64,000 bases of DNA from a virus: positions 21,133 to 85,132 of the IMG/VR virus record IMGVR_UViG_3300044695_003432; one strand, given 5' to 3'. A model generated the notes under the pieces. It had not been told where the DNA came from. It made no database searches and worked only from the letters and a program-made list of their open reading frames with translations. Made by a program: the position numbers and the translations under genes. Shown one piece after another: positions 11,258 through 63,541 of the stretch; the first letter of the stretch is position 1, and every line of letters starts with the position of its first letter.

Positions 11258-11288
11258 AAAAAGACGGCACCGTGTTTCCACGATGCCG
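11258..11288 (-). terminator. Rho-independent terminator before the lipoprotein gene
   Basis: On the minus strand a 10-bp stem (CGGCATCGTG / CACGGTGCCG) with one G-T pair closes on a GAAA tetraloop and is followed by TCTTTTT. It ends the transcript of the 11317-11886 gene and lies immediately before the lipoprotein start. Confidence 0.75.
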
Positions 11289-11895: not shown

Positions 11896-13524
11896 TTAGT
11901 TTGCGATGCCAGGGGCCGAACCGGACACGGCCTCCGCGAGCGTGACGCACCGATACGTCCCGTCTTTGAGTCTTGGAACAACAGCGTCCGTGACGACCTT
12001 CATAAAGGCTTGCTCTTGCGATCGGTTGGCGTGCCCGTAGAACACCGCCAGCCCGCCGTGGTCGTCCAAAGCGTCCAGAAGACCCTGCGAAACCGTTGTG
12101 TTGTACCCGGTCGCGTGCTGGACTTCGAGGAAGTCGATGTGGTTGGTGGTCGTTGCGTCCTCGGAAGCCGTCGAGGTGTGGGAAATCACGTCAAGCCCGG
12201 CCTCCAACAAATACTCAGACTGCTCCGGCGTCATGTTTCCCTGATGGGTCGCGTAGATGCGGGAACCCTGCTCAAAGCCGTTGTCCTGTAGCCACCACGC
12301 AGCGGGTCGGATGTAGTCGGTCCAGAACTTTTCGGCAGTCAGGGTGCGGCTGTTGATGTAGACGACGCCGCTGTTGATGTCGCCCTCGTATTTCGACCAT
12401 CCGTGATTGCCGATCATGTGCCCCGCCCTCTGCATGGCGAGAAGGTCGGCTTTTGACGCATAGCCGGACGTGCCGACCAGTTGGGGGTGGACGTGGAAGT
12501 TGCCACGGATTCCCCATTTGTCGAACTCCATCGCCGTGTAGATGCAGCCCGCGTAGCCGTCGTCGTCGCGGAAGGCGACGAGTTTGGTGGAGGGCGTCGG
12601 CGTAATGAACTGGAGGCTGTCGAACGTCACGGTACAGGACGTGCCGGTCTTGGAGTTGAGGTAGATGCGAATGAAGTGGACATCGGCGGGGTTGACGGTG
12701 CCAACGGTCGTCGGGTGCAGAACAAGCGTGTTCCAGCCCGGCCCGCACACGGCGGACGAATCGAACTGCTGGAAGTTCGCCATCGTTTTGGTGGCGGTTG
12801 CAAGCGTCGTGTCGTGGAACCCGATGCTGATGTTTTGCACGTTGCCGGACTGCGCCGATTGCTGAGACGGATCAACGTACACACGCAAGATGATGAACGG
12901 CCATTTGCCCGTTCCACCACTCAGGTCAACGGGTCCAGCACCGCCGTTCGACACGCGGTAGTCGTAGCGAATTTCTGCTGTGACGCCGCTCGTGGCAGTC
13001 AATGCGATAGAGAACGGGGCTGTCTCGCCGCTCTGGACCTCGCCTGAGCGACAGTTGACATAATCCTTCACGGCGGTTCCGGTTTCAACCTTGAACCGAT
13101 CCGCCGTGATCGTGGTGCCGTTGGTGGCACCGTAGGTTTCAAACGGGCAGACGTGCGACGTGCGAAGCCCGCCTTTGCGAAGCCCGCGCGGGGTGACGCG
13201 GCCTCGATTCTGGAGAAGCGGGGACACGCGAACGTCGTAGTCGTCTTGCAGGCGGACAGACGCGCGCTCGGCAAGGGTCAACGCCCCGCCCGTGTTGAGA
13301 TTCGTAACGTACACGCGATACTGGTTGAACCGGGGCACAACAAGGATGCCGCTGTTGTAGGCGTAGCCAAGGTTCACGGGCGTGTCGGAATCGTTGTTCC
13401 TTCCGTCAACGCGAACCGTGCCACCTCCGGGGAACACAAAGCGGAGCGGGACCGTTGGCGAGGAATCGGTGTTCTGATACCAGCCGCCGCCGCCAACAGC
13501 CGTGATGTTTTGTGCAAGTATCAT
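11896..13524 (-). CDS. CE4/NodB-type polysaccharide deacetylase, probable virion enzyme (unit A)
   Basis: 542 residues from MILAQNITAVGG. The first 310 residues or so are beta-rich and look like a structural or carbohydrate-binding region. The NodB-like domain follows: LVAFRDDDGYAG (Asp about 320-322, motif 1, normally TFDDG) and IGNHGWSKYE (His about 374, motif 2). The second metal His of the usual HxxxH is a Lys here, so zinc binding may differ. CE4 enzymes remove N- or O-acetyl groups from polysaccharides. Lying among virion genes with no export signal, it may modify capsule or O-antigen from the particle. A longer upstream start is open but less likely. Confidence 0.65.
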   Translation of the reverse strand: MILAQNITAVGGGGWYQNTDSSPTVPLRFVFPGGGTVRVDGRNNDSDTPVNLGYAYNSGILVVPRFNQYRVYVTNLNTGGALTLAERASVRLQDDYDVRVSPLLQNRGRVTPRGLRKGGLRTSHVCPFETYGATNGTTITADRFKVETGTAVKDYVNCRSGEVQSGETAPFSIALTATSGVTAEIRYDYRVSNGGAGPVDLSGGTGKWPFIILRVYVDPSQQSAQSGNVQNISIGFHDTTLATATKTMANFQQFDSSAVCGPGWNTLVLHPTTVGTVNPADVHFIRIYLNSKTGTSCTVTFDSLQFITPTPSTKLVAFRDDDGYAGCIYTAMEFDKWGIRGNFHVHPQLVGTSGYASKADLLAMQRAGHMIGNHGWSKYEGDINSGVVYINSRTLTAEKFWTDYIRPAAWWLQDNGFEQGSRIYATHQGNMTPEQSEYLLEAGLDVISHTSTASEDATTTNHIDFLEVQHATGYNTTVSQGLLDALDDHGGLAVFYGHANRSQEQAFMKVVTDAVVPRLKDGTYRCVTLAEAVSGSAPGIAN

Positions 13525-21544: not shown

Positions 21545-21877
21545 TCAGCCTCCTTTGTCCAAAGCCTCCACCGCCGCCGCGAGTGCGAGGAAGCGGGTGT
21601 TTCCACCGACGCCATTCTCGTACTCCCAATAGGCACAGTCCCCTACCGCGTCGTCGCACAAGTTGATCGTTCCCAACCTCTCCACCATCGCCCACGCGAT
21701 CGCGGAGAGGGCGTGAAGCGGGTGGCACCATCCGTCAAACTCGGAACCGTCGTGCCAGTGTTCCGCGTCGAGTCCGTCGTGGTGGCGGCGTTGCACCGTC
21801 TTCGGCCACCACTCCGCGTCCTTGTACGTTTTGTACAACTCCACCGCCTTCGCGTGGTCTGCTTCGGTGAATGTCAT
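21545..21877 (-). CDS. small unrecognised early protein upstream of RNA polymerase (unit A)
   Basis: 110 residues from MTFTEADHAKAVELYKTYK, with AAAGGGAA before the ATG and an ATGA overlap with the gene ahead. It is rich in Trp, His and Cys (EWWPKTVQRRHHDG, CHPLHALS, CDDAVGDCAYWEYE), which could bind metal. Unit B has an unrelated small membrane protein in the same slot. Confidence 0.6.
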   Translation of the reverse strand: MTFTEADHAKAVELYKTYKDAEWWPKTVQRRHHDGLDAEHWHDGSEFDGWCHPLHALSAIAWAMVERLGTINLCDDAVGDCAYWEYENGVGGNTRFLALAAAVEALDKGG

Positions 21878-22128
21878 GGCTTCCCTTTCCGCTCGGTGCC
21901 GTTGAGGATGGCGAGGATGTCGCGCTTGTGGATGTACCAGCGGTCGGGTGCCGCCTGCTCGCACAGTTCCCTCACCCTGCGGAGTTTCTCGCGGTCGTTC
22001 GTCCACTCGCGGGTGAGGACGGTCACGATGTCGCGATCCGTGTCGCGATCGCCATTTGCGGGCTTCTTTTCGCCCCGAATCGCGTCACTTTGTCGCGATT
22101 TCTGTCGCGATTCACGCTTCTTCGCCAT
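21874..22128 (-). CDS. small basic early protein, shared by both units
   Basis: 84 residues from MAKKRESRQKSRQS. The N-terminal half is strongly charged with RESRQKSRQ and DRDTDRD repeats; the C-terminal half (VRELCEQAAPDRWYIHKRDI) is compact. The last 44 codons recur almost unchanged at the right edge of the window (63863-64000). It overlaps both neighbours. The charged, basic character suggests nucleic-acid binding, but no family is recognised. Confidence 0.6.
   Translation of the reverse strand: MAKKRESRQKSRQSDAIRGEKKPANGDRDTDRDIVTVLTREWTNDREKLRRVRELCEQAAPDRWYIHKRDILAILNGTERKGKP
21879..22013. repeat. 135-bp direct repeat, copy 1
   Basis: Matches 63866-64000 with a single difference (T at 21886, C at 63873). 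The match is cut by the end of the window, so its true length is unknown. It covers the 3' half of the gene at 21874-22128. Sequence to the left of the two copies is unrelated. Confidence 0.95.
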
Positions 22129-22330
22129 CGCTCGCCTCCTTGATCGTCTTCTCCACTTCCTGCCGAATGACGTACCCGAGTGCGGGCAGGTCCACGCCGA
22201 ACAGCCGACGATACTCACGGGCACGGTTGACGATGCGGTTGGCACACTCGTTGGCGGCGATCTGGTCGTCGGTCCAGCCGCCGAGGTAGAGCGTGAGCGA
22301 CTGCGTGTTTTGGTCAAGTGGAAGGGGCAT
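22112..22330 (-). CDS. small early protein (unit A)
   Basis: 72 residues from MPLPLDQNTQSLTLYLGG, preceded by AGGAGG at good spacing. A helical segment (NECANRIVNRAREYRRLFG) fills the centre. It overlaps the next gene by 17 bases. Not recognised. Confidence 0.55.
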   Translation of the reverse strand: MPLPLDQNTQSLTLYLGGWTDDQIAANECANRIVNRAREYRRLFGVDLPALGYVIRQEVEKTIKEASDGEEA

Positions 22331-22406
22331 CGCTCGCCTCCTTCTTCGAGTTGTCAAGTGCGGCTTGACTGCTGGGGGAACTATTCGATGTTGTCGAAAG
22401 GTTCAC
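22314..22406 (-). CDS. possible 30-residue peptide with GTG start
   Basis: A GTG at 22406 follows AAGGAG by six bases and opens a Ser/Asn-rich 30-codon frame whose stop overlaps the start of the 22112-22330 gene. The ribosome site and coupling speak for it; the low-complexity product and short length speak against it. Confidence 0.3.
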   Translation of the reverse strand: MNLSTTSNSSPSSQAALDNSKKEASDAPST

Positions 22407-22440
22407 TTGCTTCTCCTTTTCCACTTTCCACCCCGAAACG

Positions 22441-22959
22441 CTAATTTGCGGGGCGTGATTTAGTGCTGGGTTGAATTTCGTCGGCGATGGTGATGCCCGC
22501 TTCGGCAAGAGCAGCGCGCCACGCATGATCGCGGGCATGGATCATCCGCATCTCGGCGTCGGTGAACAGGCCGGGCGTTTTCGCAACGGTCGGTGCCTTC
22601 ACCACCATCGCGGCGGGCTTGGGTGCGGGCTCAACTGCGGCGAGGCGGGATTCGAGGGCGGTGATGCGCTTCCATGCCTCGTGTAGCCGCTCGTGGGCGT
22701 GCGCGGCGTTGGCCCGTGCCTGCGCATCCACCACGGGAACAACGTCACGAAAACAAGATTTCTCGTCGTTCTTGTTTTCTTGCGGGGCGGGCTTAGGCAA
22801 CTCCGCTTTACCACCGTTCGCGGTAGGAAAATCTGGGGGCGTTTCCTTTACTAGCCGCGCGTTCCCAGACGCCTCTGCTGTCAAAACCGGCGATGTTGTC
22901 TTTTGCTGACACTCGGGCTTCTCCCCTTCGCCGGGGGTGATCGTGTTCTCGCTACTCAT
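22441..22959 (-). CDS. unrecognised early protein with coiled coil (unit A)
   Basis: 172 residues. The first 75 or so are low-complexity and charged (MSSENTITPGEGEKPE). Then comes a helical region (AHAHERLHEAWKRITALES) and a C-terminal compact part (FTDAEMRMIHARDHAWRA). No enzyme motif. The ATG overlaps the stop of the upstream gene as ATGA, within a chain of three coupled genes (22441-23611). Confidence 0.55.
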   Translation of the reverse strand: MSSENTITPGEGEKPECQQKTTSPVLTAEASGNARLVKETPPDFPTANGGKAELPKPAPQENKNDEKSCFRDVVPVVDAQARANAAHAHERLHEAWKRITALESRLAAVEPAPKPAAMVVKAPTVAKTPGLFTDAEMRMIHARDHAWRAALAEAGITIADEIQPSTKSRPAN

Positions 22960-23231
22960 GCTGCCACCGTCCTTTCCTTCCGAATCTTCTTCAGAATCTT
23001 CTTCACATCGCTCGCCGCGGTCTCGGGAACTTCCATCCCCATCCGCTCGGCGATCTCCCGGAGTACGGGATCGTTGACGAAAGCCCGATGGAGTTTACCC
23101 AGGGCTCTCTGCTCGATGGCGAAGGCATTGGCCTTTGTGCAGGGGGTTCCGCGGGCGGTGAGTATCTCGGCACACTCGCCGAGGGTGCGGATGCCGGAGT
23201 TACGCTCTTCTTTGGTGTAGCCGGTGCTCAT
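22956..23231 (-). CDS. small basic early protein (unit A)
   Basis: 91 residues, MSTGYTKEERNSGIRTLGE to a Lys/Arg-rich tail (VKKILKKIRKERTVAA). The region LGECAEILTARGTPCTKANA reads like a short helix-turn-helix and the basic tail could contact nucleic acid, so a DNA-binding role is possible but unproved. Coupled to both neighbours by 4-base overlaps. Confidence 0.55.
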   Translation of the reverse strand: MSTGYTKEERNSGIRTLGECAEILTARGTPCTKANAFAIEQRALGKLHRAFVNDPVLREIAERMGMEVPETAASDVKKILKKIRKERTVAA

Positions 23232-23615: not shown

Positions 23616-23683
23616 CAAAGACTCCAAAGGCCCCAGCGTCATTGCTAGGGGAAACGATCCGAGACCGGGTAGGGTGTCGGATC
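23616..23683 (-). promoter_or_regulatory. two-hairpin intergenic element, copy 1
   Basis: Minus strand: hairpin 1 at 23656-23683 has 11-base arms (GATCCGACACC / GGTCTCGGATC) with loop CTACCC and one C-C mismatch four pairs from the loop. Hairpin 2 at 23631-23650 is CCCTAGC / GCTGGGG with a 6-base loop. The CCTTTGAAAGG box before the start codon is degenerate here (CCTTTGGAGT). Confidence 0.65.
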
Positions 23684-23690
23684 GGATGGA

Positions 23691-24545
23691 TCAGCGAACG
23701 GGGAACCCCTCGCCGCGGTCGAAGTACCGGACGACGGTTCCGGGGTCGGTGTGGCTTCCACCGGCGTACCGCATCGTTTTTCCGCCGGTCGGCCACCAGT
23801 CCGGGAAGCGGTGCGACTTGCTTTCAATGCCCGTGACGGTTCCGGAGCGGCTGTCAGACTTGTAGCGGACAGTCTGCTCTACCGGGCGGTCTTCGCGGCG
23901 GAGGTAGACCCCGACGCGGACAGTGCCGATCCCGGAAACCTCAGAGAACCAGTGCGCGGAGCAAGTGCTATTTGAGTAGTGCGGGGAGTGAGCCCAGAAG
24001 GTGACAGGGGCGATCGGCGTGCGTTCCGGGTTTCCCTTCTCTGATCGGGACTCCGGACAAATGCTAGTGCATCCGTCCCGGCGAATCTCCGCGGGGATCG
24101 GAGGAAGTGCCGCAACGATCCGGAGAAGATCGGACCAGGAGAGCCCGCCTTCTTTGTGCATCGAGAACGAATCGCCGTAGGTGAGCCAGGCGGCTTCGGT
24201 AGAGTGGTGCCCTAGCACCGTCACCAGCCGGGGCGGAAGGTCTTCGAGGGCGTGGCGGATGATGGCCTCAGTCTCGGCCTTCAGGATATCTTGTTCGGCC
24301 TTCTCGATTGCCTTTACCCAGATATCCGAAACGGGCACGGCGATTGGGTATTCTGACGTGAGATCGTTAGGGGCGAAATAGCCCTCGACGGTGGAGCCAC
24401 TGAGGAACCACTCCCCCTTTTTAGGTGGGCGGCTCTCCCCCGTTGGCCGTACTTTGGTAGCCGTTCCCGCTCGGGTCCGATCCTCTTCCGCGATTGGGTA
24501 AAGGCGGCTTCCGGGAAACTCCCACTTCATGTCTCTAAGCTGCAT
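23691..24545 (-). CDS. unrecognised early protein, largest of the early cluster (unit A)
   Basis: 284 residues from MQLRDMKWEFPGSRLYP. It contains Trp-rich segments (GEWFLSGSTVEGYF, RFPDWWPTGG), a helical region (AIEKAEQDILKAETEAIIRH), and two Cys with His nearby. No domain recognised. Flanked by two-hairpin elements on both sides, so it is probably read from its own processed mRNA segment. Confidence 0.6.
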   Translation of the reverse strand: MQLRDMKWEFPGSRLYPIAEEDRTRAGTATKVRPTGESRPPKKGEWFLSGSTVEGYFAPNDLTSEYPIAVPVSDIWVKAIEKAEQDILKAETEAIIRHALEDLPPRLVTVLGHHSTEAAWLTYGDSFSMHKEGGLSWSDLLRIVAALPPIPAEIRRDGCTSICPESRSEKGNPERTPIAPVTFWAHSPHYSNSTCSAHWFSEVSGIGTVRVGVYLRREDRPVEQTVRYKSDSRSGTVTGIESKSHRFPDWWPTGGKTMRYAGGSHTDPGTVVRYFDRGEGFPVR

Positions 24546-24552
24546 GGCTTTA

Positions 24553-24616
24553 CCTTTCAAAGGCTCCGGCGGTATTGCCGGAGGAATCGACCCGGAACCG
24601 TTTCGGGTGCCGGATC
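24553..24616 (-). promoter_or_regulatory. two-hairpin intergenic element, copy 2
   Basis: Minus strand: hairpin 1 at 24589-24616, arms GATCCGGCACC / GGTTCCGGGTC, loop CGAAAC, C-T mismatch four pairs from the loop. Hairpin 2 at 24564-24583, CTCCGGC / GCCGGAG, loop AATACC. Palindrome CCTTTGAAAGG at 24553-24563 overlaps the ribosome site. Confidence 0.8.
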
Positions 24617-24623
24617 GGATACT

Positions 24624-24953
24624 TCAGACAGTGCAGGCGGGTCCGTAGGGCTTGCTAGAAAGTCCCTCTCGGACCAGGATGAGACGCGAACCCGTGAAGG
24701 GGATGCGATCTCCGTCGCGGGGATAGACCCACCATTCGCCCCGCGACTGAGAGACGTAGAACCCCAGAGCGAACTGGGCCGCGGCTTGATTCATGCGGAG
24801 CTTGGTTGTCGCGGTTTTCCAGCCGCCCGTATTCAGATCGATAAGGGAGGAGTCAAACGAAACCACATCGGTATTGTGATACCGAACGATCGTTCGCCCC
24901 CCCTCAGCGCGAATAGAGGTAGCTACGCCGGAGACTTTCAGAGTTTGGGCCAT
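24624..24953 (-). CDS. unrecognised early protein (unit A)
   Basis: 109 residues from MAQTLKVSGVATSIRAEGG, with GAAAGGG before the ATG. A mixed beta composition (RTIVRYHNTDVVSFD, GEWWVYPRDGDRIP), no motif. The start was chosen because the element box and ribosome site lie just ahead of this ATG; an upstream extension would run through the element and the neighbouring small gene. Confidence 0.6.
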   Translation of the reverse strand: MAQTLKVSGVATSIRAEGGRTIVRYHNTDVVSFDSSLIDLNTGGWKTATTKLRMNQAAAQFALGFYVSQSRGEWWVYPRDGDRIPFTGSRLILVREGLSSKPYGPACTV

Positions 24954-24960
24954 TGCTTTC

Positions 24961-25024
24961 CCTTTCAAAGGCTCCGGCGGTATTGCCGGAGGAATCGACC
25001 CGCAAGCGGTTAGGCTAGCTGGTC
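24961..25024 (-). promoter_or_regulatory. two-hairpin intergenic element, copy 3
   Basis: Minus strand: hairpin 1 at 24997-25024, arms GACCAGCTAGC / GCTTGCGGGTC, loop CTAACC, T-T mismatch four pairs from the loop. The outer C-G pair replaces the T-G pair of copy 5, a stem-preserving change. Hairpin 2 at 24972-24991 CTCCGGC / GCCGGAG. Box CCTTTGAAAGG at 24961-24971. Confidence 0.8.
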
Positions 25025-25032
25025 GGATGCTT

Positions 25033-25167
25033 CTACTCCGCGTCTCTGCTGCCAGGCTCCTCGGGGAAGAGGGCATCGGCGGCGGATTGGAGGAAGAGGG
25101 GTAGGAGGGTGCAGAGGAGGAGGGAGAGGAGGACCAGGGAGAAGAGGAGGAGGGAGGCATAGAACAT
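25033..25167 (-). CDS. 44-residue hydrophobic membrane peptide (unit A)
   Basis: A short frame from ATG at 25167 to TAG at 25033, with GAAAGGG seven bases ahead. The product starts MFYASLLLFSLVLLSLLLC, continues with more Leu and Pro, then an acidic tail (FPEEPGSRDAE). The first 25 residues make one strong membrane helix. It lies between a two-hairpin element and another copy, in line with the other early genes. A role in membrane disturbance, superinfection exclusion or toxicity is possible; nothing further can be said. Confidence 0.55.
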   Translation of the reverse strand: MFYASLLLFSLVLLSLLLCTLLPLFLQSAADALFPEEPGSRDAE

Positions 25168-25170
25168 CGG

Positions 25171-25237
25171 TTTCCCTTTCATCTACCGATGGCCTATTCC
25201 ATCGGTGAATCCGCCGATGAGACTTTCATCTAATCGG
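25171..25237 (-). promoter_or_regulatory. two-hairpin intergenic element, copy 4 (variant)
   Basis: Minus strand: hairpin 1 at 25214-25237, arms CCGATTAGA / TCTCATCGG, loop TGAAAG, mismatch four pairs from the loop. Hairpin 2 at 25185-25206, ACCGATGG / CCATCGGT, loop AATAGG. The ribosome site TGAAAGGGAAA (25171-25181) lacks the CCTTT half, but its exact complement lies 109 bases upstream at 25291-25301. Confidence 0.65.
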
Positions 25238-25254
25238 AAGGAAGGGGAGAGGAG

Positions 25255-25289
25255 AAAACCACCCAGGGCGGTTACCCGCGTCTGGGTGG
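25255..25289 (-). terminator. Rho-independent terminator within the early operon
   Basis: Minus strand: outer stem CCACCCA / TGGGTGG and inner stem GCGG / CCGC closing on a GTAA tetraloop, followed by TTTTCTCC. It follows the 25302-25541 gene by 12 bases and would lower expression of the early genes beyond it. Confidence 0.7.
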
Positions 25290-25301
25290 CTGAAAGGGAA
25301 A

Positions 25302-25541
25302 CTAGTGGAGCTGTTCGGCGGAGTAGTGTACGCCGATCATCGAAGCGGATACGACGAGATCAAAGGCAAATGTACAGATGAGAGGGTCGGGACAGTCGAG
25401 ACGGAACCGGATTTCTTCTATGGCCTTTGCCTTTGAAGGGGCCCTGATACCATCGAACACCAGGGATACTTGCGGATCGCTCGGTCGGGGCTTGTCCTTT
25501 GGACCAGCGAAGTATGCGACGCGGACGGAATAGCTTTTCAT
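25302..25541 (-). CDS. small unrecognised early protein (unit A)
   Basis: 79 residues from MKSYSVRVAYFAGPKDKPR. An alternating beta start, then a helical stretch (APSKAKAIEEIRFRLDCPD). No motif. Preceded by a full two-hairpin element and followed by a terminator. Confidence 0.55.
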   Translation of the reverse strand: MKSYSVRVAYFAGPKDKPRPSDPQVSLVFDGIRAPSKAKAIEEIRFRLDCPDPLICTFAFDLVVSASMIGVHYSAEQLH

Positions 25542-25548
25542 CGGGTGC

Positions 25549-25612
25549 CCTTTCAAAGGCTCCGGCACAATCGCCGGAGGAATCGACCCGCAAGCGGTTA
25601 CGCTAGCGGATC
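25549..25612 (-). promoter_or_regulatory. two-hairpin intergenic element, copy 5
   Basis: Minus strand: hairpin 1 at 25585-25612, arms GATCCGCTAGC / GCTTGCGGGTC, loop GTAACC, T-T mismatch four pairs from the loop. Hairpin 2 at 25560-25579, CTCCGGC / GCCGGAG, loop GATTGT. Box CCTTTGAAAGG at 25549-25559. Confidence 0.8.
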
Positions 25613-25624
25613 GGGTTGATTGGT

Positions 25625-26200
25625 CTAGAACTCTTCACCCTCTTCGGTGTACCGTTCTTCGTCTTGGTCGAGATACTCCAGGATGCCTGCCTCGGAGATT
25701 CGGTACTCCAAGTCATCCTCACAGATTCGCATGATCCGATCGGCTGCCCAATCGAATCCTCGGGAAAGGGTTTCACCGGATCGGATGGCGTCTAGGACAG
25801 CTTCGATAACGTCATCATCGAAGCAGACGCCAGACAGGCCACAGATACCGGGAAACTTTCCATCCTTCAACTGGTCTGGAGTGTAACCCTTGGGACGGAG
25901 GCATTCCCAGAACCATTCTTCGACCTTCTCTCCGGTATCGGAGAGGGTATCAATCTCATCATCCCCCAAGAAGGATTGGCGGAGGCTACACCGATTCCCG
26001 CGATTGTACGGGCCGATGCTCCAATCGCTCAGGGTAACGCACAAGGCATCGGCGAGCTTCTTCAGAGAATCAATACACTCGGAGAGGGTGAAGTTATCGT
26101 CATCCCCGCCAATGTCCTCGGCGATATCGGCGATAACCCGATCCTGAGACTTTTCTGACAGCTCAGAGAATGAATACAGCTCGGTCTCTTGCGTTCTCAT
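25625..26200 (-). CDS. acidic early protein, FSELSEK family-like (unit A)
   Basis: 191 residues from MRTQETELYSFSELSEKSQ. The YSFSELSEKSQDR start is like that of a common, uncharacterised phage protein family beginning with a phrase of the kind YxFxELSxKAKEKA. The protein is very acidic throughout, ending DQDEERYTEEGEEF, and has several Cys. Host-enzyme inhibition or DNA mimicry is a plausible guess only. ATG chosen because GAAAGGG precedes it; full hairpin element ahead. Confidence 0.6.
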   Translation of the reverse strand: MRTQETELYSFSELSEKSQDRVIADIAEDIGGDDDNFTLSECIDSLKKLADALCVTLSDWSIGPYNRGNRCSLRQSFLGDDEIDTLSDTGEKVEEWFWECLRPKGYTPDQLKDGKFPGICGLSGVCFDDDVIEAVLDAIRSGETLSRGFDWAADRIMRICEDDLEYRISEAGILEYLDQDEERYTEEGEEF

Positions 26201-26207
26201 CTTTGAC

Positions 26208-26271
26208 CCTTTCAAAGGTTTCCTAGCGACATGCTAGGGAATCGATCCGGTAGCCTTTCAGCTACGGGATC
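26208..26271 (-). promoter_or_regulatory. two-hairpin intergenic element, copy 6
   Basis: Minus strand: hairpin 1 at 26244-26271, arms GATCCCGTAGC / GCTACCGGATC, loop TGAAAG, single C-C mismatch at the sixth pair. Hairpin 2 at 26222-26238, CCTAGC / GCTAGG, loop ATGTC; both arms differ from copies 2, 3 and 5 but still pair. Box CCTTTGAAAGG at 26208-26218. Confidence 0.8.
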
Positions 26272-26278
26272 GGGTGAA

Positions 26279-26479
26279 TCATTCGTAATCGTGCCAGTCT
26301 CGGACTTCCCCACGCGTCTGAAGTCTCCAGTTCATATCGGGCTCGGCATCGCGGTATGCCTGCAAAGTTTTCAGTAGATACGGAAGTCTATGGGGCAGAT
26401 CGGACTCGTGGACTGTCCAGCGAGAATCGACGGTGAACCAACCAGGGCCGGACGACACTAAACGGAAGTTATTCGGCAT
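26279..26479 (-). CDS. small unrecognised early protein (unit A)
   Basis: 66 residues from MPNNFRLVSSGPGWFTVDS, ending GEVRDWHDYE. Compact, Trp-rich, no motif. Start fixed by GAAAGGG ahead of this ATG and the preceding hairpin element. Confidence 0.55.
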   Translation of the reverse strand: MPNNFRLVSSGPGWFTVDSRWTVHESDLPHRLPYLLKTLQAYRDAEPDMNWRLQTRGEVRDWHDYE

Positions 26480-26486
26480 TGTGTTC

Positions 26487-26548
26487 CCTTTCAAAGGTCC
26501 GGCGGTATTGCCGGAGAATCGATCCAGCATCCTTTCGGATGCCGGATC
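26487..26548 (-). promoter_or_regulatory. two-hairpin intergenic element, copy 7 (best stem)
   Basis: Minus strand: hairpin 1 at 26521-26548 has arms GATCCGGCATCC / GGATGCTGGATC closing on a GAAA tetraloop, twelve pairs with one G-T. Hairpin 2 at 26498-26515, TCCGGC / GCCGGA, loop AATACC. Box CCTTTGAAAGG at 26487-26497. Confidence 0.85.
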
Positions 26549-26555
26549 GGATGGA

Positions 26556-26813
26556 TCATTCGTCGTCCTCTTCAAGCAGATACACAATCCCACAATGTTT
26601 GCATGTCGGCAGGGGATGCCCGATCGGAGGCACGATCCTAGGGGCGGGTTCATGTCGGCAGTTGTCGATATCGTACAGTTGATCCTTCAGCTCTTGGGCA
26701 TTGTTCTCGATCTCTTCGATCTCTTCCTGAGAGAATCGATATCTCAGGGATGCCCGATCCGAGAGGATGGATTCGATCTCTTCGATGCGTTCGGCGAGCT
26801 GTTCGCGTGTCAT
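26556..26813 (-). CDS. first gene of the early operon; coiled coil plus Cys pair (unit A)
   Basis: 85 residues from MTREQLAERIEEIESILSD. Residues 1-50 are an acidic coiled coil; the C terminus holds TCKHCGIVYLLEEDDE, a single CxxC pair that could bind zinc as a dimer or with the nearby His. It is the first gene after the early promoter and is likely expressed at once on infection. Confidence 0.6.
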   Translation of the reverse strand: MTREQLAERIEEIESILSDRASLRYRFSQEEIEEIENNAQELKDQLYDIDNCRHEPAPRIVPPIGHPLPTCKHCGIVYLLEEDDE

Positions 26814-26820
26814 GTGTTTC

Positions 26821-26923
26821 CCTTTCAAAGGAATGAGTGAAAACCCCGCACGCGGTTTCCCGCATGCAGGGCGTTTAGGTTTCGGTTTCACTTGTCAGAG
26901 AAGGGGATTCGGGCCGTTGCCCG
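26821..26923 (-). promoter_or_regulatory. early mRNA leader with GAAA hairpin
   Basis: Minus strand: a 12-pair stem at 26844-26871 (CCCTGCATGCGG / CCGCGTGCGGGG, two G-T pairs) closes on a GAAA loop and is followed by TTTTC. A smaller stem, CGGGC / GCCCG, lies at 26910-26923. Box CCTTTGAAAGG at 26821-26831. TTCACTCAT occurs at both sides, 26833-26841 and 26930-26938. It is the leader form of the intergenic element. Confidence 0.7.
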
Positions 26924-27710: not shown

Positions 27711-27970
27711 CACTTCCTCCCTCTGCGTCTCGTCTGCGTCTTTCCTGCGTCCACCTCTGCGTCCACCTCTGCGTCCACCTCTGCGTCCACCTCTGCGTCC
27801 CCCTTCACAACCCCGTCCACCCCTCCCTCTCCATCTCCTCCTCCATCTCCGCCAACATCTCGTCCAGGTTCATCACCTCCACCCTTCACCTCCTCCCCCT
27901 TGGGGGGTTCAGCCTGAGCGACGTACATCTGCTTGATCGAGTCCCAATAGTTGATTAGCGAGTGATCCAT
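27710..27970 (-). CDS. small acidic protein with VDAE repeats (unit B)
   Basis: 86 residues from MDHSLINYWDSIKQMYVAQ. The first 22 residues look natural; then a Gly/Asp/Glu stretch, a run of DAEV repeats encoded by a 12-bp tandem repeat, and a basic end (RRRGRK). The start overlaps the stop of the large terminase gene. Function unknown. Confidence 0.45.
   Translation of the reverse strand: MDHSLINYWDSIKQMYVAQAEPPKGEEVKGGGDEPGRDVGGDGGGDGEGGVDGVVKGDAEVDAEVDAEVDAEVDAGKTQTRRRGRK
27745..27800 (-). repeat. 12-bp tandem repeat, four and a half units
   Basis: Plus-strand unit CTGCGTCCACCT at 27745, 27757, 27769 and 27781, then a partial unit. In frame with the gene above, it encodes repeated Asp-Ala-Glu-Val. 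Confidence 0.9.
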
Positions 27971-31073: not shown

Positions 31074-31098
31074 GGGGGTTTCCAATGGGGTGAAGAGA

Positions 31099-31122
31099 CA
31101 CCCCCGCGGTTAGGCGGGGGTG
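31099..31122 (-). terminator. hairpin after the gp16-like gene
   Basis: Minus strand: 9-bp stem CACCCCCGC / GCGGGGGTG with loop CTAACC, then TCTCTTC. The weak T tract makes it a poor terminator; it may instead be an RNA-processing stem. Its loop is identical to that of two-hairpin element copy 3. Confidence 0.5.
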
Positions 31123-31128
31123 GCTTGA

Positions 31129-36036: not shown

Positions 36037-37790
36037 TGATCGGATTTCTTAGCGGGAGCGAGGGAGGGCGAGTCCGAGGAGGACGAGCCGGAGCGGGTGG
36101 CGTTGAAGGGGATCTCGGACTGAATCTGCTTGACGAACTCGGTGAGCTTGGACATGGCATCCTCGGGGAGGATCTTCTTGCCCCCGCGGGAGTTCATCTT
36201 GTAGGAGAACCACTTCTCAGACAGAGCGGCCTTGGCACGGACGATGCGGGCTCCGGTCTCACTGGAGGCGGAGGGCATACCAGGCATCGGGAAGGCGAAG
36301 GCGGCTGCTGCCGGATCGTTCTCGATGTATGCGGCGACGAGCTGCTGCTCGGCGACTCGGTACGCATCTTCGATCGTGGGGAACTTCTCGGCCTGCTCGG
36401 CACGGTCGATCCACTTCGAGGCCTCGTGCTCGGTGATGGCACCGTTCTTGGCGAGGTAGAAAACATACTCAGTGCTGAGGGGATCACGAGGATCGAGTTC
36501 CTCAGACATGATGTTCGAGCGGATCAGGGCGTTCGGGGCAGAGCCGATCTCACGATCGAGCTCGTTGACGCGATCCGTGAGTTCCTTCGCTGCCCCCATC
36601 TGGCGGAAGGCATCGAAGAAGCGGGCACGGGCTCCGGGGAGATCTCCGGTTTCCTTGACGTAGCCTTCGAGTTCGCCTCGAAGGTACTTGAGGGCCTCGG
36701 AGGAGGCTTGGCTATCGGCGGTGTGGATGTTCGAGGACAGCTTGTATCGCTCATTGAAGTAGCTCTCGAAGGCCCCCGGAGGGACGTTCTGGAGCATCTC
36801 CGGGGGGAGACGATGCGAGAGGGGATTCTCCCCCGCGGCGGTGTGGGCGTAGAGCGAGTCGCTAGCGGACTTGCCCCAAGTGTCTGCGGCTTGCTTGACC
36901 GCTTCGGACTGCTGCTTCATCTCTTGGAGGATGAGCGAGTTGACGCGGGTGGCGGTGTTGTAGCGGACTTCCTGAGCGGCGGCGGTGTTGCCGAGGGGAG
37001 CTCCGTCCTTGCCCTTGAGTTGAGAGAGGATGCGGGGGGCGAGGTTGGCGTCCTTGGCTTGGAGGGAGGCCTCTTCGATGGACTCGTAGAGGATCTTGTT
37101 GGCGATCGTGGGGTGCATGGTCCGAAGCATCTCGTCGAGATGGGTCTGGACCTCGGCCACGCCATCGGCTGAGTCGAACTTCGAGCCAGCGGTAAAGATG
37201 GAGGTGAGGTAGTCTCGGGCCTTCTCTTGGCGTTCCACCTGACGCTCTTGGGAGCGTTGGTTGGACCACTGGTTCAGAACCCGAGACTTCATCGAGTCGA
37301 GTTCGGGGACCGCAGCCTCGGCAGCGAATGGCGAGAGGTTCTGAGCGAAGCCGGAGAAGTGCTCATCCCAAAGAGAAGCCACCGCGTCGGGGTTGTCTTG
37401 GAACCGAGCGGGGTCTTCTTCGAGCTTCTTATCGAACCCGAGAGCGAGCTTGCGGGCCTCGGCCTTCGCCACCTCCTGCTCGGCCTGAGCCATCGACCAG
37501 GGGTTATCCGCCCAAGGGATCTCTCCAGCATCGACCGCCTTCTTGAAGGAGGCCATGTTGTCGAGACGCTTGGTGAGGACATCCTTGGTGGCTCGGAGTT
37601 CCGAGGCACGGCGGTAGGCGGAGAACTGGCGATCGAGGACGCCTTGGAGGCGGGGATTGAACTCGCGGAGAGACGCGGCAAGCTGAAGGGCCGGGTTGGC
37701 GGGGGCAGGGGCGGCGACATCGGCCTGCCGGAACTGATCCACAGGGCGGGCCTGCGGGTCAAGGGGGACGTACGAGTTCATCGAGGACAT
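36033..37790 (-). CDS. gp15-like internal virion (core) protein (unit B)
   Basis: 585 residues, shorter than T7 gp15 (747). Hydrophilic and helical, no membrane segment; segments such as RQFSAYRRASELRATKD and LSSNIHTADSQASSEALKY. Placed between the gp14- and gp16-like genes, with a 4-base overlap to the latter. Expected to stack in the capsid core and form part of the ejection tube. Confidence 0.7.
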   Translation of the reverse strand: MSSMNSYVPLDPQARPVDQFRQADVAAPAPANPALQLAASLREFNPRLQGVLDRQFSAYRRASELRATKDVLTKRLDNMASFKKAVDAGEIPWADNPWSMAQAEQEVAKAEARKLALGFDKKLEEDPARFQDNPDAVASLWDEHFSGFAQNLSPFAAEAAVPELDSMKSRVLNQWSNQRSQERQVERQEKARDYLTSIFTAGSKFDSADGVAEVQTHLDEMLRTMHPTIANKILYESIEEASLQAKDANLAPRILSQLKGKDGAPLGNTAAAQEVRYNTATRVNSLILQEMKQQSEAVKQAADTWGKSASDSLYAHTAAGENPLSHRLPPEMLQNVPPGAFESYFNERYKLSSNIHTADSQASSEALKYLRGELEGYVKETGDLPGARARFFDAFRQMGAAKELTDRVNELDREIGSAPNALIRSNIMSEELDPRDPLSTEYVFYLAKNGAITEHEASKWIDRAEQAEKFPTIEDAYRVAEQQLVAAYIENDPAAAAFAFPMPGMPSASSETGARIVRAKAALSEKWFSYKMNSRGGKKILPEDAMSKLTEFVKQIQSEIPFNATRSGSSSSDSPSLAPAKKSDQ

Positions 37791-43800: not shown

Positions 43801-43969
43801 ATGCTGTAAACTCCAAGCAGGGACAATGAAGAAGTGGAAGAGAGACGAAGACCGGAGTAGTTGTCCTCAGCTTGTCCGCCGCAGCGGGGCATCGGGCTAG
43901 TGGTCGAAGAAACCGACTCCCGACCGTTGGGCCAGGAGTGGGGCCATTCTCGAAGGAATGGGGGAGTAG

Positions 43970-45406
43970 TTAGAAGCGATTGCGGGGCGGGGAGAATCCC
44001 GAGGCTCCGCCTCCGCCTTGTGTCCCGCCGATGTTTCGGGGGGTGTCGATGGACTGACCAAGGCGGCGGTTGTACCCGCTGTTCAGAAGCGGGGAGCCGG
44101 TGGTGGGGTTGAGGTCCAGAGCACCCGTGACGGTGCTGGTGAAGCGGGGATCGCCGGTGCTGATGAGGATGTTGGTGAGGTAGGTGGCCTCAGATCCAGC
44201 AGGACCGACCGCACCGGACGAGTTACCGAAGGCGTGGTTATTGGGGAAGGAGCCGATGCGGCCTGAAGAGATCGGGCTCGTGGCGTTGAAACCCCATCCG
44301 CCGTTGTTGGAGGAGGAGCAGTAGACGATTCGGGTAGCAGAGCCGGAGGCGAACTCGAAGCCGTCTCCGGTGTTGAACGCGGCCATGCACTGAGAGAACA
44401 CGCCAGCCGTTACCGAGGCGTTGAGGTTGTATCCATCTCCGGTGTTAGCAAAGGCCACACAATCATCCATCGTGAACAGGCCCACACCCGTCACGGAGAA
44501 ACCATTCGCTGTGTTACCCCACGAGCAGCACCCGCTGAAGAGGTGGGAGTTGCCGGTGGCGGAGTGAGCGAAGCCGGAGCCACCGCAGGAGTAGGCCCAG
44601 CAGTCAACACAGTTGACGCGGCTCGCCGAGGACGTGATAGAGAAACCGTGAGAGGAGACGTTCCGGGCTACGCACGCTCGGAAGGTGATGTCTGCGTTCG
44701 AGGCTCCGGTGGTTACGCCGGTAGTGGGAGCACCGCCACCGCCGCTCCCGCCGACGAACTCAAGCAGAATGAATGTGACGTAGACCAGAGAGCCGGGGAG
44801 GGTGAGGATGGGGGTGGCTCCGCCCGAGGAGGTAGAGCCGCCGAGCTTCACGGGGAACAGCGAGGGCTTTCCAGTGAAGTCAGCAGAGGCAACGCGAATG
44901 CGGTTGGCCGCGGTTCCGTTGTTTCCCCAAGTGAAGTTAGCGGTTGTGCCGCGGTACACCAGCTCGGTTCCATCCTCCCAGTTTGTGCGGACGATGCGGT
45001 GATCGTCTCCGCCTGCGGATGCGATGGGGGTGGCCGAGGCCATGTAGGTCAGAGTGGCCCAGGGTCCGTCTGAGAACGTGAGGGCGGTGGTGTTGACAGT
45101 GGCGAGGCCGGTTGCGGGCTTGAGAACGACGGTCTGTAGGCCGAGGTTGTTGCTCTCCACTTCGTAGAGACCGTTCACGCCGCCCGTGGCCCCACCCCAG
45201 TTGATGTACACGAGACATCCGGCAATGGAGTTGTCCCCCAAGATGTTGCCGAAGCCGGGGTCAGTGATCGTCCGGGTGGATGTGTTGTATGAGGGGGACG
45301 TGGACTGAGCAGCAAGGCCGATCGGACAGAGCCCGTCGTTGCCGTTGTTGGGAGTAGAGACGGCTCCAGGCGTTGAAGACGCCGCGGACACGAAGTAGAT
45401 CGCCAT
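43970..45406 (-). CDS. right-handed beta-helix virion protein (unit B)
   Basis: 478 residues, MAIYFVSAASSTPGAVS onward. The middle (about residues 190-430) repeats short strands with Gly, Asn, Cys and Val at regular spacing (NVSSHGFSITSSASRVNCVD, GNSHLFSGCCSWGNTANGF), the look of a pectate-lyase-type beta-helix. Such folds serve as phage depolymerases or surface spikes. It lies between a terminator and the capsid gene, an unusual place for a fibre; unit B has no gp17 after gp16, so it may be the receptor-binding or head-attached protein. Confidence 0.6.
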   Translation of the reverse strand: MAIYFVSAASSTPGAVSTPNNGNDGLCPIGLAAQSTSPSYNTSTRTITDPGFGNILGDNSIAGCLVYINWGGATGGVNGLYEVESNNLGLQTVVLKPATGLATVNTTALTFSDGPWATLTYMASATPIASAGGDDHRIVRTNWEDGTELVYRGTTANFTWGNNGTAANRIRVASADFTGKPSLFPVKLGGSTSSGGATPILTLPGSLVYVTFILLEFVGGSGGGGAPTTGVTTGASNADITFRACVARNVSSHGFSITSSASRVNCVDCWAYSCGGSGFAHSATGNSHLFSGCCSWGNTANGFSVTGVGLFTMDDCVAFANTGDGYNLNASVTAGVFSQCMAAFNTGDGFEFASGSATRIVYCSSSNNGGWGFNATSPISSGRIGSFPNNHAFGNSSGAVGPAGSEATYLTNILISTGDPRFTSTVTGALDLNPTTGSPLLNSGYNRRLGQSIDTPRNIGGTQGGGGASGFSPPRNRF

Positions 45407-52035: not shown

Positions 52036-52381
52036 TCATAATCCTTTGGTAAAACTCCGCAAGCCGGAGCAGCTCCGCCAGGGTGGCATCACCCTTCAGT
52101 CGATTGGCTCTCGTCGAGACGACGACGACGTTTCCCCGGACGTAGCCCAGTACAGGCTCAATACGATCAAGAGAAGGAGAGCGGTCCCCATCCCCACGAG
52201 CCATCTCAAAGCCAAGTACGGGGCACGTCGGAGGAATGTCAAAGTCCTCTTCATACAGATCGAAAGGGACGCCAGCCTTGATCGCTCTCCGCTTGGCGTC
52301 CCTGAGCAGCTTTCGTTTCGGGTGTCTGTACTCATAACTAATGGGTCTCGGCCCAGTTCCTTCCGATCTTGAACTCACCAT
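52028..52381 (-). CDS. HNH-type endonuclease VII-like protein (unit B)
   Basis: 117 residues if the ATG at 52381 is used, which lies 44 bases inside the polymerase gene and has no good ribosome site. The secure part is SYEYRHPKRKLLRDAKRRA onward, with PTCPVLGFEMARGDGDRSPS, LDRIEPVLGYVRGNVVVVS and TRANRLKGDATL, an endonuclease-VII/HNH pattern (Asp-Arg, Asn for metal). It may be a small homing or resolving nuclease. Start uncertain. Confidence 0.6.
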   Translation of the reverse strand: MVSSRSEGTGPRPISYEYRHPKRKLLRDAKRRAIKAGVPFDLYEEDFDIPPTCPVLGFEMARGDGDRSPSLDRIEPVLGYVRGNVVVVSTRANRLKGDATLAELLRLAEFYQRIMSG

Positions 52382-54191
52382 CGGTGGGAATCCGCAGGTT
52401 GAAGTCACGTCCCGCTTGCCGGAACGCCTCCACGGCGATCTTGCCAACCGTCTCCGCGTGCTCGGGCGGAGCCTCGATCTGAACTTCGTCGTGGATGTGG
52501 AGTAGAAGCCGAGCGTCATACTTCGGGAACTCCCGTGCCATGAGCACGGTTCCCCGCTTGACGACGAGAGCACCGGCTGACTGAAGAACGGTGTTGAGTG
52601 CGGAGTGGGCGGAACGGACGTGGAGATACCTCCCGTCCAGTCCGAGGAGGTACGGACGCTTGGCAAGAGTCGCCTCGATGCTCGTCATAAGACGGGCATA
52701 CGCGGGGATCTTCTTGAACATCCGATCTCGTGCCCACTGACCACGCTTGATGTTGGCGAGGGCTTCCTTCGTGAGCTCCCCCGCGGACTTCATCTTCCCG
52801 GCGATGTACTTGTTCCGCTTGCTCAAGGCCGCGGCTTGGGCCTCGGCTTCGGCAACGGCTTCCAGGGTGCCAAGGCTGCTTCCAAGTTTCTCATCTCCGG
52901 CCCCGTAGATCAGGGCGTAGATTCCGGTCTTGGCGGCGTTGCGGCCCGCCTTGCCTGCGGGAAGTCCAAACACTCCCTGGTTGAAGGTGTGTACATCCCC
53001 GTCGAGTACGGTGCGACCGTACTCACCGGAATCGAACGCGGCGAGGTAGTGAGAGAGCATTCGGAGCTCAAGGCCGCTCGCGTCCGCACCGACGAGGACT
53101 TTGCCTTTCGTCGGCTCGAAGAGCTCGCGGCACTCTTTGCCGAACGGCTTGCCGACGCTCGGGACTTGGGCGAGGTTCGGGGACGAGTGCGTGCAACGGC
53201 CCGTGACTGCCCCGTTCGTGTTGATGCTGCCATGAATCCTGCCCTCCTTGGTTACGAGTTTCATCCACGCCTGATTGCCTTCGGCAACCTGACCGATTCG
53301 CTTCTGAAGCAAGAAGAACTCTGCGAGCTTCTTGGCCTCCGGGTAGGGGAGGTGCTCAAGAGTCTCCTCATCCACCTGCGGAACACCCGTAGCGGTTTTC
53401 TTCGCGGGCTTCCAACCCAGCTTCATAAGCCGATCTGCGATCTGCTGACGAGAGGCGGGGTTGAATGGAGTGGTCTTTGTCTTGGTCTTGAGCTTGATGA
53501 TGTTCGGCTCGAAGGTCGCTTCCATCTCGCGGCGGAGTTCGTCTCGCTTGGCGGCGAGGGCGGAGTACAAGACTCCCGCCTTCTCCACGTTGAAGCAGAC
53601 TCCGGTTCGCTCCATGTCCACGATCACCCCTTGGAAATCGTGTTCGAGTTCGATGGACCGCTCGCTGTAGCCGAGGGCCTTGAGCATCCGCCACAGGGCC
53701 AGAGTCACCGCCACATCCTGCTCGCAATACCGCTGCATCTGCGGAGACCACACCGACCAGTCAGCCGTTCTCCCGAACGAGTCCTTCAGCACACCGAGTC
53801 GATACCCCCATGCTTCAAGAGAATGGGAACCGATCAGGCGGGCAGGGAAGCGAGAGTCCTTGCGGGATCTCGCCATGTCCTGCTCGTAGAGGTGGGTGAA
53901 GATCAGGCGGGAGTATCGGAGGGTGTCTCGGATCTTCCCCTCCCACCGCCACTCAGGAGCGAGCTTGCGGAGGATGGGGATGTCGAAGACCTGGGCATTG
54001 TGGCCGATCAGGAGATCGGTGGAGGCGAGCACATCGAGGCCGTCCTCAATGGTCCCGTCCGTCTTGTCCTCGCCCTGGTGATCGTGGTAGGACCACCGCT
54101 TGCCGGTGTGAGGGTCGAGGGTGACGATGGAGTGGATGAGCGTGGAGTCTTCGAGTCCGTTGGTTTCTAGGTCGAAGATCAGTTCGCTCAA
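52338..54191 (-). CDS. family A DNA polymerase, gp5-like (unit B)
   Basis: 617 residues, T7 gp5 being 704. N-terminal 3'-5' exonuclease begins FDLETNGLED. Polymerase motifs: Asp about 370 in GADASGLELRML (motif A), RNAAKTGIYALIYGAGDEKL (motif B helix), and HDEV at about 567-570 (motif C). It replicates the phage genome. The sequence is on the short side, so a thioredoxin-binding loop like that of T7 may be reduced. Confidence 0.95.
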   Translation of the reverse strand: MSELIFDLETNGLEDSTLIHSIVTLDPHTGKRWSYHDHQGEDKTDGTIEDGLDVLASTDLLIGHNAQVFDIPILRKLAPEWRWEGKIRDTLRYSRLIFTHLYEQDMARSRKDSRFPARLIGSHSLEAWGYRLGVLKDSFGRTADWSVWSPQMQRYCEQDVAVTLALWRMLKALGYSERSIELEHDFQGVIVDMERTGVCFNVEKAGVLYSALAAKRDELRREMEATFEPNIIKLKTKTKTTPFNPASRQQIADRLMKLGWKPAKKTATGVPQVDEETLEHLPYPEAKKLAEFFLLQKRIGQVAEGNQAWMKLVTKEGRIHGSINTNGAVTGRCTHSSPNLAQVPSVGKPFGKECRELFEPTKGKVLVGADASGLELRMLSHYLAAFDSGEYGRTVLDGDVHTFNQGVFGLPAGKAGRNAAKTGIYALIYGAGDEKLGSSLGTLEAVAEAEAQAAALSKRNKYIAGKMKSAGELTKEALANIKRGQWARDRMFKKIPAYARLMTSIEATLAKRPYLLGLDGRYLHVRSAHSALNTVLQSAGALVVKRGTVLMAREFPKYDARLLLHIHDEVQIEAPPEHAETVGKIAVEAFRQAGRDFNLRIPTDGEFKIGRNWAETH

Positions 54192-61571: not shown

Positions 61572-61678
61572 TGATAAACAGTCTCCTTGGATGTATTTGA
61601 GAGGTAGTCCTAATGGACTACTCCTGCGTCTATAAACCAGAACTGTCTCTGAGTCTGTCTCTGCGTACTTCTACTCGT

Positions 61679-61726
61679 CCTAGTACTACTCCTAGTACTA
61701 CTCCTAGTACTACTCCTAGTACTACT
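61679..61726. repeat. 12-bp tandem repeats, four exact units
   Basis: Unit CCTAGTACTACT at 61679, 61691, 61703 and 61715. Each unit contains CTAG and the palindrome AGTACT. Possible protein-binding iterons. Confidence 0.95.
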
Positions 61727-61761
61727 CCCCCTACTACTCTGTCTCTAGGGGGAGTCTTTTT
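61724..61761 (+). terminator. terminator-like hairpin reading on the plus strand
   Basis: Perfect 10-bp stem ACTCCCCCTA / TAGGGGGAGT with a 12-base loop, then CTTTTTC on the plus strand. No plus-strand gene ends here, so it may serve an antisense or regulatory RNA, or act as a stem on the minus strand. Confidence 0.55.
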
Positions 61762-63208: not shown

Positions 63209-63541
63209 TCAGCCTTTCTCGATGGAGTCCAGGGCCTTGCGGAGGAGGGAGTGGCCAAAGGGGGTGAGGTACAGGAGCTTCCTCCGCATGTCGTCCTTCG
63301 GGATGTCGTAGTACACAATGTCAGGGGATCGGTGACGCGAGCGGTCGCGGGAGTACATGAAGATCACCGCTCGGCTGACTGAAGCCTGAGAGATCCCATG
63401 CACCTCGCAGATCTCACTCGGGGAGCACCCAGGGTGGGAAGCGATGTACAGGAATATCTGAAGGTGCCGGATGGCGAACTCGTCGTTCACTTCTCCGAAC
63501 ACGGCCAGGGCTTTAGTCAACTTGCCGATTCGCTGGTCCAT
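63209..63541 (-). CDS. winged helix-turn-helix regulator, MarR-like (unit B)
   Basis: 110 residues. HLQIFLYIASHPGCSPSEIC, EVHGISQASVSRAVIFM (recognition helix) and KLLYLTPFGHSLLRKALDS (wing and C-terminal helix) form a typical MarR-type winged helix. It lies three bases ahead of int. It may act as the lysogeny or integrase regulator, since no CI-type repressor is visible. Confidence 0.8.
   Translation of the reverse strand: MDQRIGKLTKALAVFGEVNDEFAIRHLQIFLYIASHPGCSPSEICEVHGISQASVSRAVIFMYSRDRSRHRSPDIVYYDIPKDDMRRKLLYLTPFGHSLLRKALDSIEKG

Follow-up and report, generated by a model that had tools for sequence, protein, structure and literature searches.

Start-linked two-hairpin RNA leaders before early genes of two temperate T7-like phages

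The window analyzed here comprises 64,000 nucleotides (bases 21133–85132) of the 85,132 bp IMG/VR virus record IMGVR_UViG_3300044695_003432 (G000). In the early region of one of the two phages joined in this record, termed P1, seven genes are preceded on the minus strand by an element of 64–67 nt, in which two hairpins are followed by the ribosome site. Together with a copy in the second phage, P2, these elements make up a genuine and new family of structured RNA leaders linked to gene starts; both phages are temperate and T7-like. Covariation between the stem arms, the recovery of copies held out of a covariance model, a homologous copy in P2, and strand-specific wobble pairs support an RNA-level structure that is under selection in the sense (minus-strand) transcript, as a sequence-only reading of the window had proposed.

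Layout of the elements

All seven copies listed by that reading were found, each in the gap from a stop codon to the ATG that follows. From high to low coordinates, they are E2 (26487–26550, gene start at 26479), E3 (26208–26273, start 26200), E4 (25549–25614, start 25541), E5b (25175–25241, start 25167), E5 (24961–25026, start 24953), E6 (24553–24618, start 24545), and E7 (23620–23685, start 23611). The order of parts is a first hairpin (H1), an NUUC linker, a second hairpin (H2), and then usually CCTTTGAAAGG at the ribosome site. The dimensions given earlier were confirmed in every copy: H1 has arms of 11 bp (12 bp counting the outer C–G pair) and a loop of 6 nt, and H2 comprises 6 bp in the copies at 26.5k and 26.2k, 7 bp in four copies, and 8 bp in the copy at 25.2k. 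Between the end of H2 and CCTTTGAAAGG lie 0–3 nt. CCTTTGAAAGG, described before as the usual ribosome-site sequence, is exact in five of the seven copies and also stands before the first gene of the array; E7 carries CCTTTGGAGTC and E5b TAGATGAAAGG. These six occurrences are the only ones in the contig, all on the minus strand of the early region and about 7 nt before an ATG.

A recurring mismatch at the fourth pair from the H1 loop had also been noted. It is present in five of the seven copies (T.T, T.T, C.T, C.C, and T.C) and always opposes two pyrimidines; the claim fails for E2, which is fully paired, and for E3, in which a C.C mismatch lies two pairs lower. E5 and E5b each have one extra mismatch. 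When the P2 copies are included, the pyrimidine–pyrimidine mismatch occupies one position in 8 of 10 copies. The H1 loops are limited to GAAA, UAAC, and UACC (GACA in a further P2 hairpin), while the stems vary freely. E4, E5, and E6 have identical segments in common.

The position of the element is fixed relative to the downstream gene. The distance from the end of H1 to the ATG is 40, 42, 42, 43, 42, 42, and 43 nt in the seven P1 copies, and H1 lies 6, 6, 11, 61, 7, 6, and 6 nt behind the preceding stop codon. In E5b, another hairpin intervenes and H1 is 61 nt away from the stop codon, but still 43 nt away from the ATG, which indicates that the element belongs to the downstream start. The element is absent from overlapping early genes (23228–23231 and 22956–22959) and from the late region.

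Evidence for a selected RNA structure

The seven P1 copies all fold to the plan of H1 plus H2 with z-scores between −3.5 and −7.2, and 0–1 of 200 dinucleotide shuffles fold as well. The observation that the stems change between copies and keep pairing was borne out by the covariation scores. For the five copies used to train the covariance model R1 (E2, E4, E5, E6, and E7), the score was 0.347 compared to 0.158 after shuffling, and none of 500 shuffles reached the observed value. For all eight model matches, it was 0.637 compared to 0.167 (0/500), with both-sided changes at 14 of 18 pairs and 97% of the cells paired versus 73% in shuffles; the alignment of these eight is fitted to the model, the copies are paralogues, and the shuffle count is not equivalent to a probability. 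A test independent of the column model led to the same result: when the 3′ arms of H1 were dealt among the seven copies, the observed pairing was reached in 2 of 5040 arrangements, the actual one and another that equals it (the 3′ arm is identical in two copies). The H1 and H2 stems of the P1 and P2 copies contain seven G–U and no A–C oppositions. Since the mirror structure of the opposite strand would reverse this ratio, the minus-strand transcript appears to be the one selected.

The check by covariance model that had been suggested was performed as well. R1, run on the window without speed filters, recovered both copies held out of training, E3 with 48.4 bits (E-value 2.6e-13) and E5b with 20.3 bits (E-value 1.7e-4). 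In the rest of the window, no R1 score above 18 bits was found on the sense strand. Two further candidates were rejected as members, one at 36762–36841 (18 bits), which lies inside a gene, and one at 31078–31126, which is a single hairpin. A comparison with Rfam 15 gave no match above the gathering threshold in the window.

The individual copies, all on the minus strand, are organized as follows. In E2 (R1 training, 75.3 bits), H1 at 26520–26549 carries the loop CGAAAG, H2 at 26498–26515 the loop AATACC, and CCTTTGAAAGG occupies 26487–26497 before a gene of 66 amino acids (aa). E3 (z −5.0) contains H1 at 26243–26272 with the loop TGAAAG and the C.C mismatch in place of the sixth pair below it, H2 at 26222–26238 (CCTAGC/GCTAGG), and CCTTTGAAAGG at 26208–26218; the downstream gene encodes 191 aa. 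E4 (R1 training, 86.8 bits) precedes a gene of 79 aa and consists of H1 at 25584–25613 (loop GTAACC, T.T), H2 at 25560–25579, and CCTTTGAAAGG at 25549–25559. E5b precedes a gene of 44 aa and has H1 at 25211–25240 (loop TGAAAG, T.C), H2 at 25185–25206 (ACCGATGG/CCATCGGT), and the ribosome site ATGAAAGG. Between the 79-aa gene and E5b, a terminator-like hairpin is located at 25254–25295 (CCACCCAG...CTGGGTGG, then TTTTC). E5 (R1 training, 90.3 bits), with H1 at 24996–25025 (loop CTAACC, T.T and A.G), H2 at 24972–24991, and CCTTTGAAAGG at 24961–24971, is followed by a gene of 109 aa assigned to Pfam PF23790 (Kyano_Gp96). In E6 (R1 training, 93.3 bits), which precedes a gene of 284 aa, H1 is found at 24588–24617 (loop CGAAAC, C.T), H2 at 24564–24583, and CCTTTGAAAGG at 24553–24563. 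E7 (R1 training, 80.7 bits) comprises H1 at 23655–23684 (loop CTACCC, C.C), H2 at 23631–23650 (CCCTAGC/GCTGGGG), and CCTTTGGAGTC before a gene of 127 aa.

The leader of the first gene (26821–26875, minus strand; start 26813) had been taken for a variant of the same structure, which could not be upheld. It forms a single hairpin of 13 bp without mismatches, which has a GAAA loop and TTTT behind it (26840–26875; z −6.4), scores only 15.2 bits with R1, and shares with the elements only CCTTTGAAAGG (26821–26831).

Occurrence in a second phage and in other loci

In P2, R1 matched a copy (P2a) at L003:15247–15306 with 39 bits and an E-value of 9.5e-11. It is situated between two early genes; the dot-bracket structure of its H1 is identical to that of the P1 copies, its H1 loop CUAACC is that of E5, and its H2 loop AAUACC is that of E2, E5, and E6. 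The linker is kept as NUUC or NUUG in both phages. A model of H1 only (R2) gave 34 bits at L003:14864–14893 and 30 bits at L003:12684–12713; both were in its training set, and their folding is no better than that of GC-rich shuffles. The two-hairpin folds of P2 copies b and e (z −1.2 and −0.3) are not better than shuffles. Only P2a was thus regarded as a firm member of the family, L003:14864–14893 and 12684–12713 as probable members only. No resemblance was seen among the P1 genes that carry the element, or between them and the early genes of P2, which means that the element was kept while its neighbors changed. In and between the P2 early genes, GTGACACGGCGC occurs in six exact copies, exclusively on the minus strand (L003 12020–14554), with near copies at 11264 and 13207.

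In 1.45 Mb from 100 other T7-like loci, searched with speed filters on, the best R1 score was 14.7 bits. No element was found in the distant RNA polymerase relatives L008–L015 and L017–L116 (L117–L122 were outside the search), nor in the stretches read of Mesorhizobium phage Lo5R7ANS and Rhizobium phage Pasto. A pattern scan of IMG/VR for the linker and the ribosome site had L005 as its sole match, which is devoid of the hairpins and was taken as chance.

Possible functions of the leader

The structure, the sense bias, the fixed start geometry, the restriction to the early region, and the occurrence in two phages are supported facts, and from these we infer a mechanism. The likeliest reading, although tentative, is that the element could be a cis-acting, start-associated 5′-leader, which controls translation initiation of its own cistron. 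Each copy would form the 5′ leader in the transcript of a single early cistron and would fold into H1 (with the usual pyrimidine–pyrimidine mismatch four pairs below the loop), the NUUC linker, and H2, ending against the ribosome site. The pair of hairpins would offer a structural platform on the 5′ side of the ribosome site and in this way act on initiation post-transcriptionally. Recognition of this platform by ribosomes or by a bound factor would allow unrelated early genes to share one control. Opening of the ribosome site was calculated to require 1.6–4.7 kcal/mol compared to 2.9–5.7 kcal/mol with scrambled hairpins; the site is about equally or slightly more open, and H1 and H2 are therefore not simple lids over it. 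The local pairing contributed by CCTTT amounts to as much as 3 kcal/mol in some copies. With respect to a pseudoknot between the loop and the ribosome site, no consistent complementarity was seen by eye.

Several observations weigh against control of initiation. The idea that the hairpins insulate the ribosome site against sequence lying further upstream is unsupported, as the spread over random upstream contexts was 0.81 kcal/mol with intact and 0.74 kcal/mol with scrambled hairpins. Terminator-like hairpins in P1 and P2 carry loops of the GAAA/UAAC type as well; the loop does not have to serve for recognition, and such loops therefore say little in favor of a specific binder. H1 and H2 are missing before the first gene of the array, which does have the ribosome-site sequence, and no trans-acting factor was identified. 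In six of the seven P1 copies, H1 follows the stop codon within 6–11 nt, as a 3′-end function would predict.

The latter geometry extends to 9 of the 10 P1 and P2 copies (H1 3–14 nt after the stop codon) and favors the main rival explanation, according to which the elements are processing or stabilizing sites like the early RNase III sites of T7. An endonuclease would cut in H1 or in the NUUC linker, leaving each early mRNA with H2 capping its 5′ end and H1 blocking its 3′ end. We consider this possible but rather unlikely. The phage is of the same kind, the earlier guess of a T7-like phage being borne out by the families of its RNA polymerase, portal, major capsid protein, and terminase, and the elements occupy the same genome region. 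The T7 sites (R0.3, R0.5, R1, R1.1, and R1.3) are likewise hairpins between early genes and lie roughly 25–35 nt before starts (L016), and the linker is kept in P1 and P2. However, a T7 site is one long stem of nested architecture with an internal loop (T7 folds; R1.1 in PMC6121014), whereas two adjacent hairpins with a pyrimidine mismatch and a ribosome-site repeat are present here. H1 has just 12 bp including a mismatch, and the double-stranded RNA required by one alphaproteobacterial RNase III is longer than that required by the E. coli enzyme (PMC6121014). In addition, H1 of E5b stays near the start and not near the stop codon.

An operator for a phage or host RNA-binding protein, which would switch the whole early array by repression or activation, appears improbable. 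Such a protein would read the shape of H1, that is, a GNRA-like loop and a pyrimidine mismatch. In favor of it, the stems are free to vary, whereas the loop is confined to three sequences, and the mismatch recurs in both phages. GAAA, UAAC, and UACC may belong to one GNRA-like class; UMAC loops are GNRA-like, a description that covers UAAC, but not UACC. The operator of gene 43 in T4 and RB69 is a hairpin that precedes the start by about 40 nt and has a -UAAC- loop (PMC3014915), and two P1 copies have a UAAC loop as well. That operator, however, serves one gene autoregulated by its own polymerase, in contrast to the seven unrelated genes here, and the P1 polymerase (window 52338–54191) matches phrog_17, to which it belongs, and phrog_15971 DNA polymerase I and is not evidently of the T4 gp43 type. 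The similar loops in terminator-like hairpins argue against an operator, too. An extension of this idea, which we regard as equally improbable, is a trans-controlled RNA regulon, in which one phage protein would read the H1 shape before every early gene and switch translation jointly, e.g., when temperate T7-like phages choose between lysis and lysogeny; the distant P2, whose early genes are unrelated, would use the same code.

A role in transcription, either as weak or conditional terminators or as put-like antitermination RNAs, is less probable still. The put RNA of phage HK022 is similar in size (about 70 nt), has two stem-loops, and is part of early transcripts (PMC9378689), and UUUC follows some of the P2 hairpins. 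In P1, however, the sequence behind H1 is AUUC or UUUC and that behind H2 is CCUUUGAAAGG, none of which is a U-tract, and none of the elements is listed by the terminator scan. Each early operon has a single put site, which lies downstream of the promoter, antiterminates through direct contact with RNA polymerase, and does not depend on a ribosome site, whereas the element is found once per gene and fused to the ribosome site. Between 22400 and 27900, the scan, which covered promoters of the sigma-70 type only, detected none (1.8 expected). An identity as sigma-70 promoter or U-tract terminator was therefore rejected. The lack of a detectable promoter also separates the elements from the promoter early stem loops (PeSLs) of T4-type phages, which are likewise repeated intergenic stem-loops between early cassettes and by definition contain an early promoter. 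A DNA-level feature of this sort, such as inverted-repeat protein sites or recombination boundaries for the exchange of early cassettes, is highly improbable. The identical segments in E4, E5, and E6 might result from recent exchange, and the flanking genes are entirely different in P1 and P2, but the ratio of G–U to A–C oppositions and the strict one-strand, start-linked orientation fit RNA.

Relation to known start-associated repeats

The closest known kind is that of the start-associated sequences (SAS) and extended start-associated sequences (ESAS) in mycobacteriophages of cluster K, where a ribosome-site sequence is repeated before many genes, non-structural ones only, and is directly preceded by an inverted repeat (Pope 2011, PMC3203893). 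An analogous start-associated case is known from Microbacterium phages of cluster EF (PMC7302621). In both SAS/ESAS and the P1 elements, a ribosome-site repeat with self-complementary flanks (GGGATAGGAGCCC and CCTTTGAAAGG, respectively) stands a few nucleotides before the ATG, 3–7 nt in SAS and about 7 nt in P1, where all genes concerned are early, and an inverted repeat is located immediately upstream. Neither the 13-bp consensus GGGATAGGAGCCC nor the 17-bp consensus of the inverted repeat is matched by the ribosome-site and H1 sequences. The authors of the ESAS study concluded that departures in the arms do not generally support RNA pairing and favored DNA-binding proteins (PMC3203893), whereas the arms described here keep pairing through compensatory changes, a second hairpin is present, and the phage is T7-like. 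Because of the differences in consensus and arm behavior, the element was not assigned to SAS/ESAS.

The start-associated inverted repeats of several actinobacterial phages have been unexplained since 2011, the choice between action as DNA or as RNA being undecided. The comparable start-linked repeats of other phages lack evidence for RNA structure as clean as that presented here. An independent T7-like phage with the same layout allowed the RNA reading to be checked, and it passed. The elements yield a defined, small, and modular leader of about 75 nt and suggest that temperate T7-like phages control their early genes singly and post-transcriptionally.

Composition of the record and neighboring features

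The 85-kb record seems to be chimeric, with two circular T7-like phages fused in a cassette of about 1 kb common to both. Its final 140 bases repeat window 21874–22013 at 98.6%, and its initial 247 bases repeat record positions 43820–44072 at 95.7%. These end repeats close P1 (window 21874–64000; 41,987 bp, approximately 42.0 kb) and P2 (record 1–43819, approximately 43.8 kb). The joining cassette is found at window 21874–22940 and at record 1–247 and 84993–85132, the copies being 96–99% identical where two are comparable. Each phage has a separate RNA polymerase, integrase, portal, major head protein, and large terminase; the two RNA polymerases are about 28–31% identical. Scans with individual proteins (both RNA polymerases and one terminase) did not detect close relatives, a nucleotide search of named phages gave no relevant match, and two early proteins had no match in named phages. 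Via the portal, three contigs from close relatives of P1 (L123–L125) were found, which match the polymerase-to-capsid region of P1 with 77–84% DNA identity, the early region being outside their coverage. On the basis of this sequence match, P1 is a real lineage.

The cassette of both phages encodes a protein of 84 aa (window 21874–22128) with a basic N-terminus (MAKKRESRQKSRQSD), which could be RNA- or DNA-binding. A protein of 110 aa (window 63209–63541) beside the P1 integrase has an N-terminus that is winged-helix-like by eye and is a candidate lysogeny regulator. Two arrays of 12-bp tandem repeats were detected in the window. The array at 27733–27816 lies past the end of the large terminase gene and adjoins the early region, and the array at 61660–61739 is located just upstream of the P1 RNA polymerase gene.

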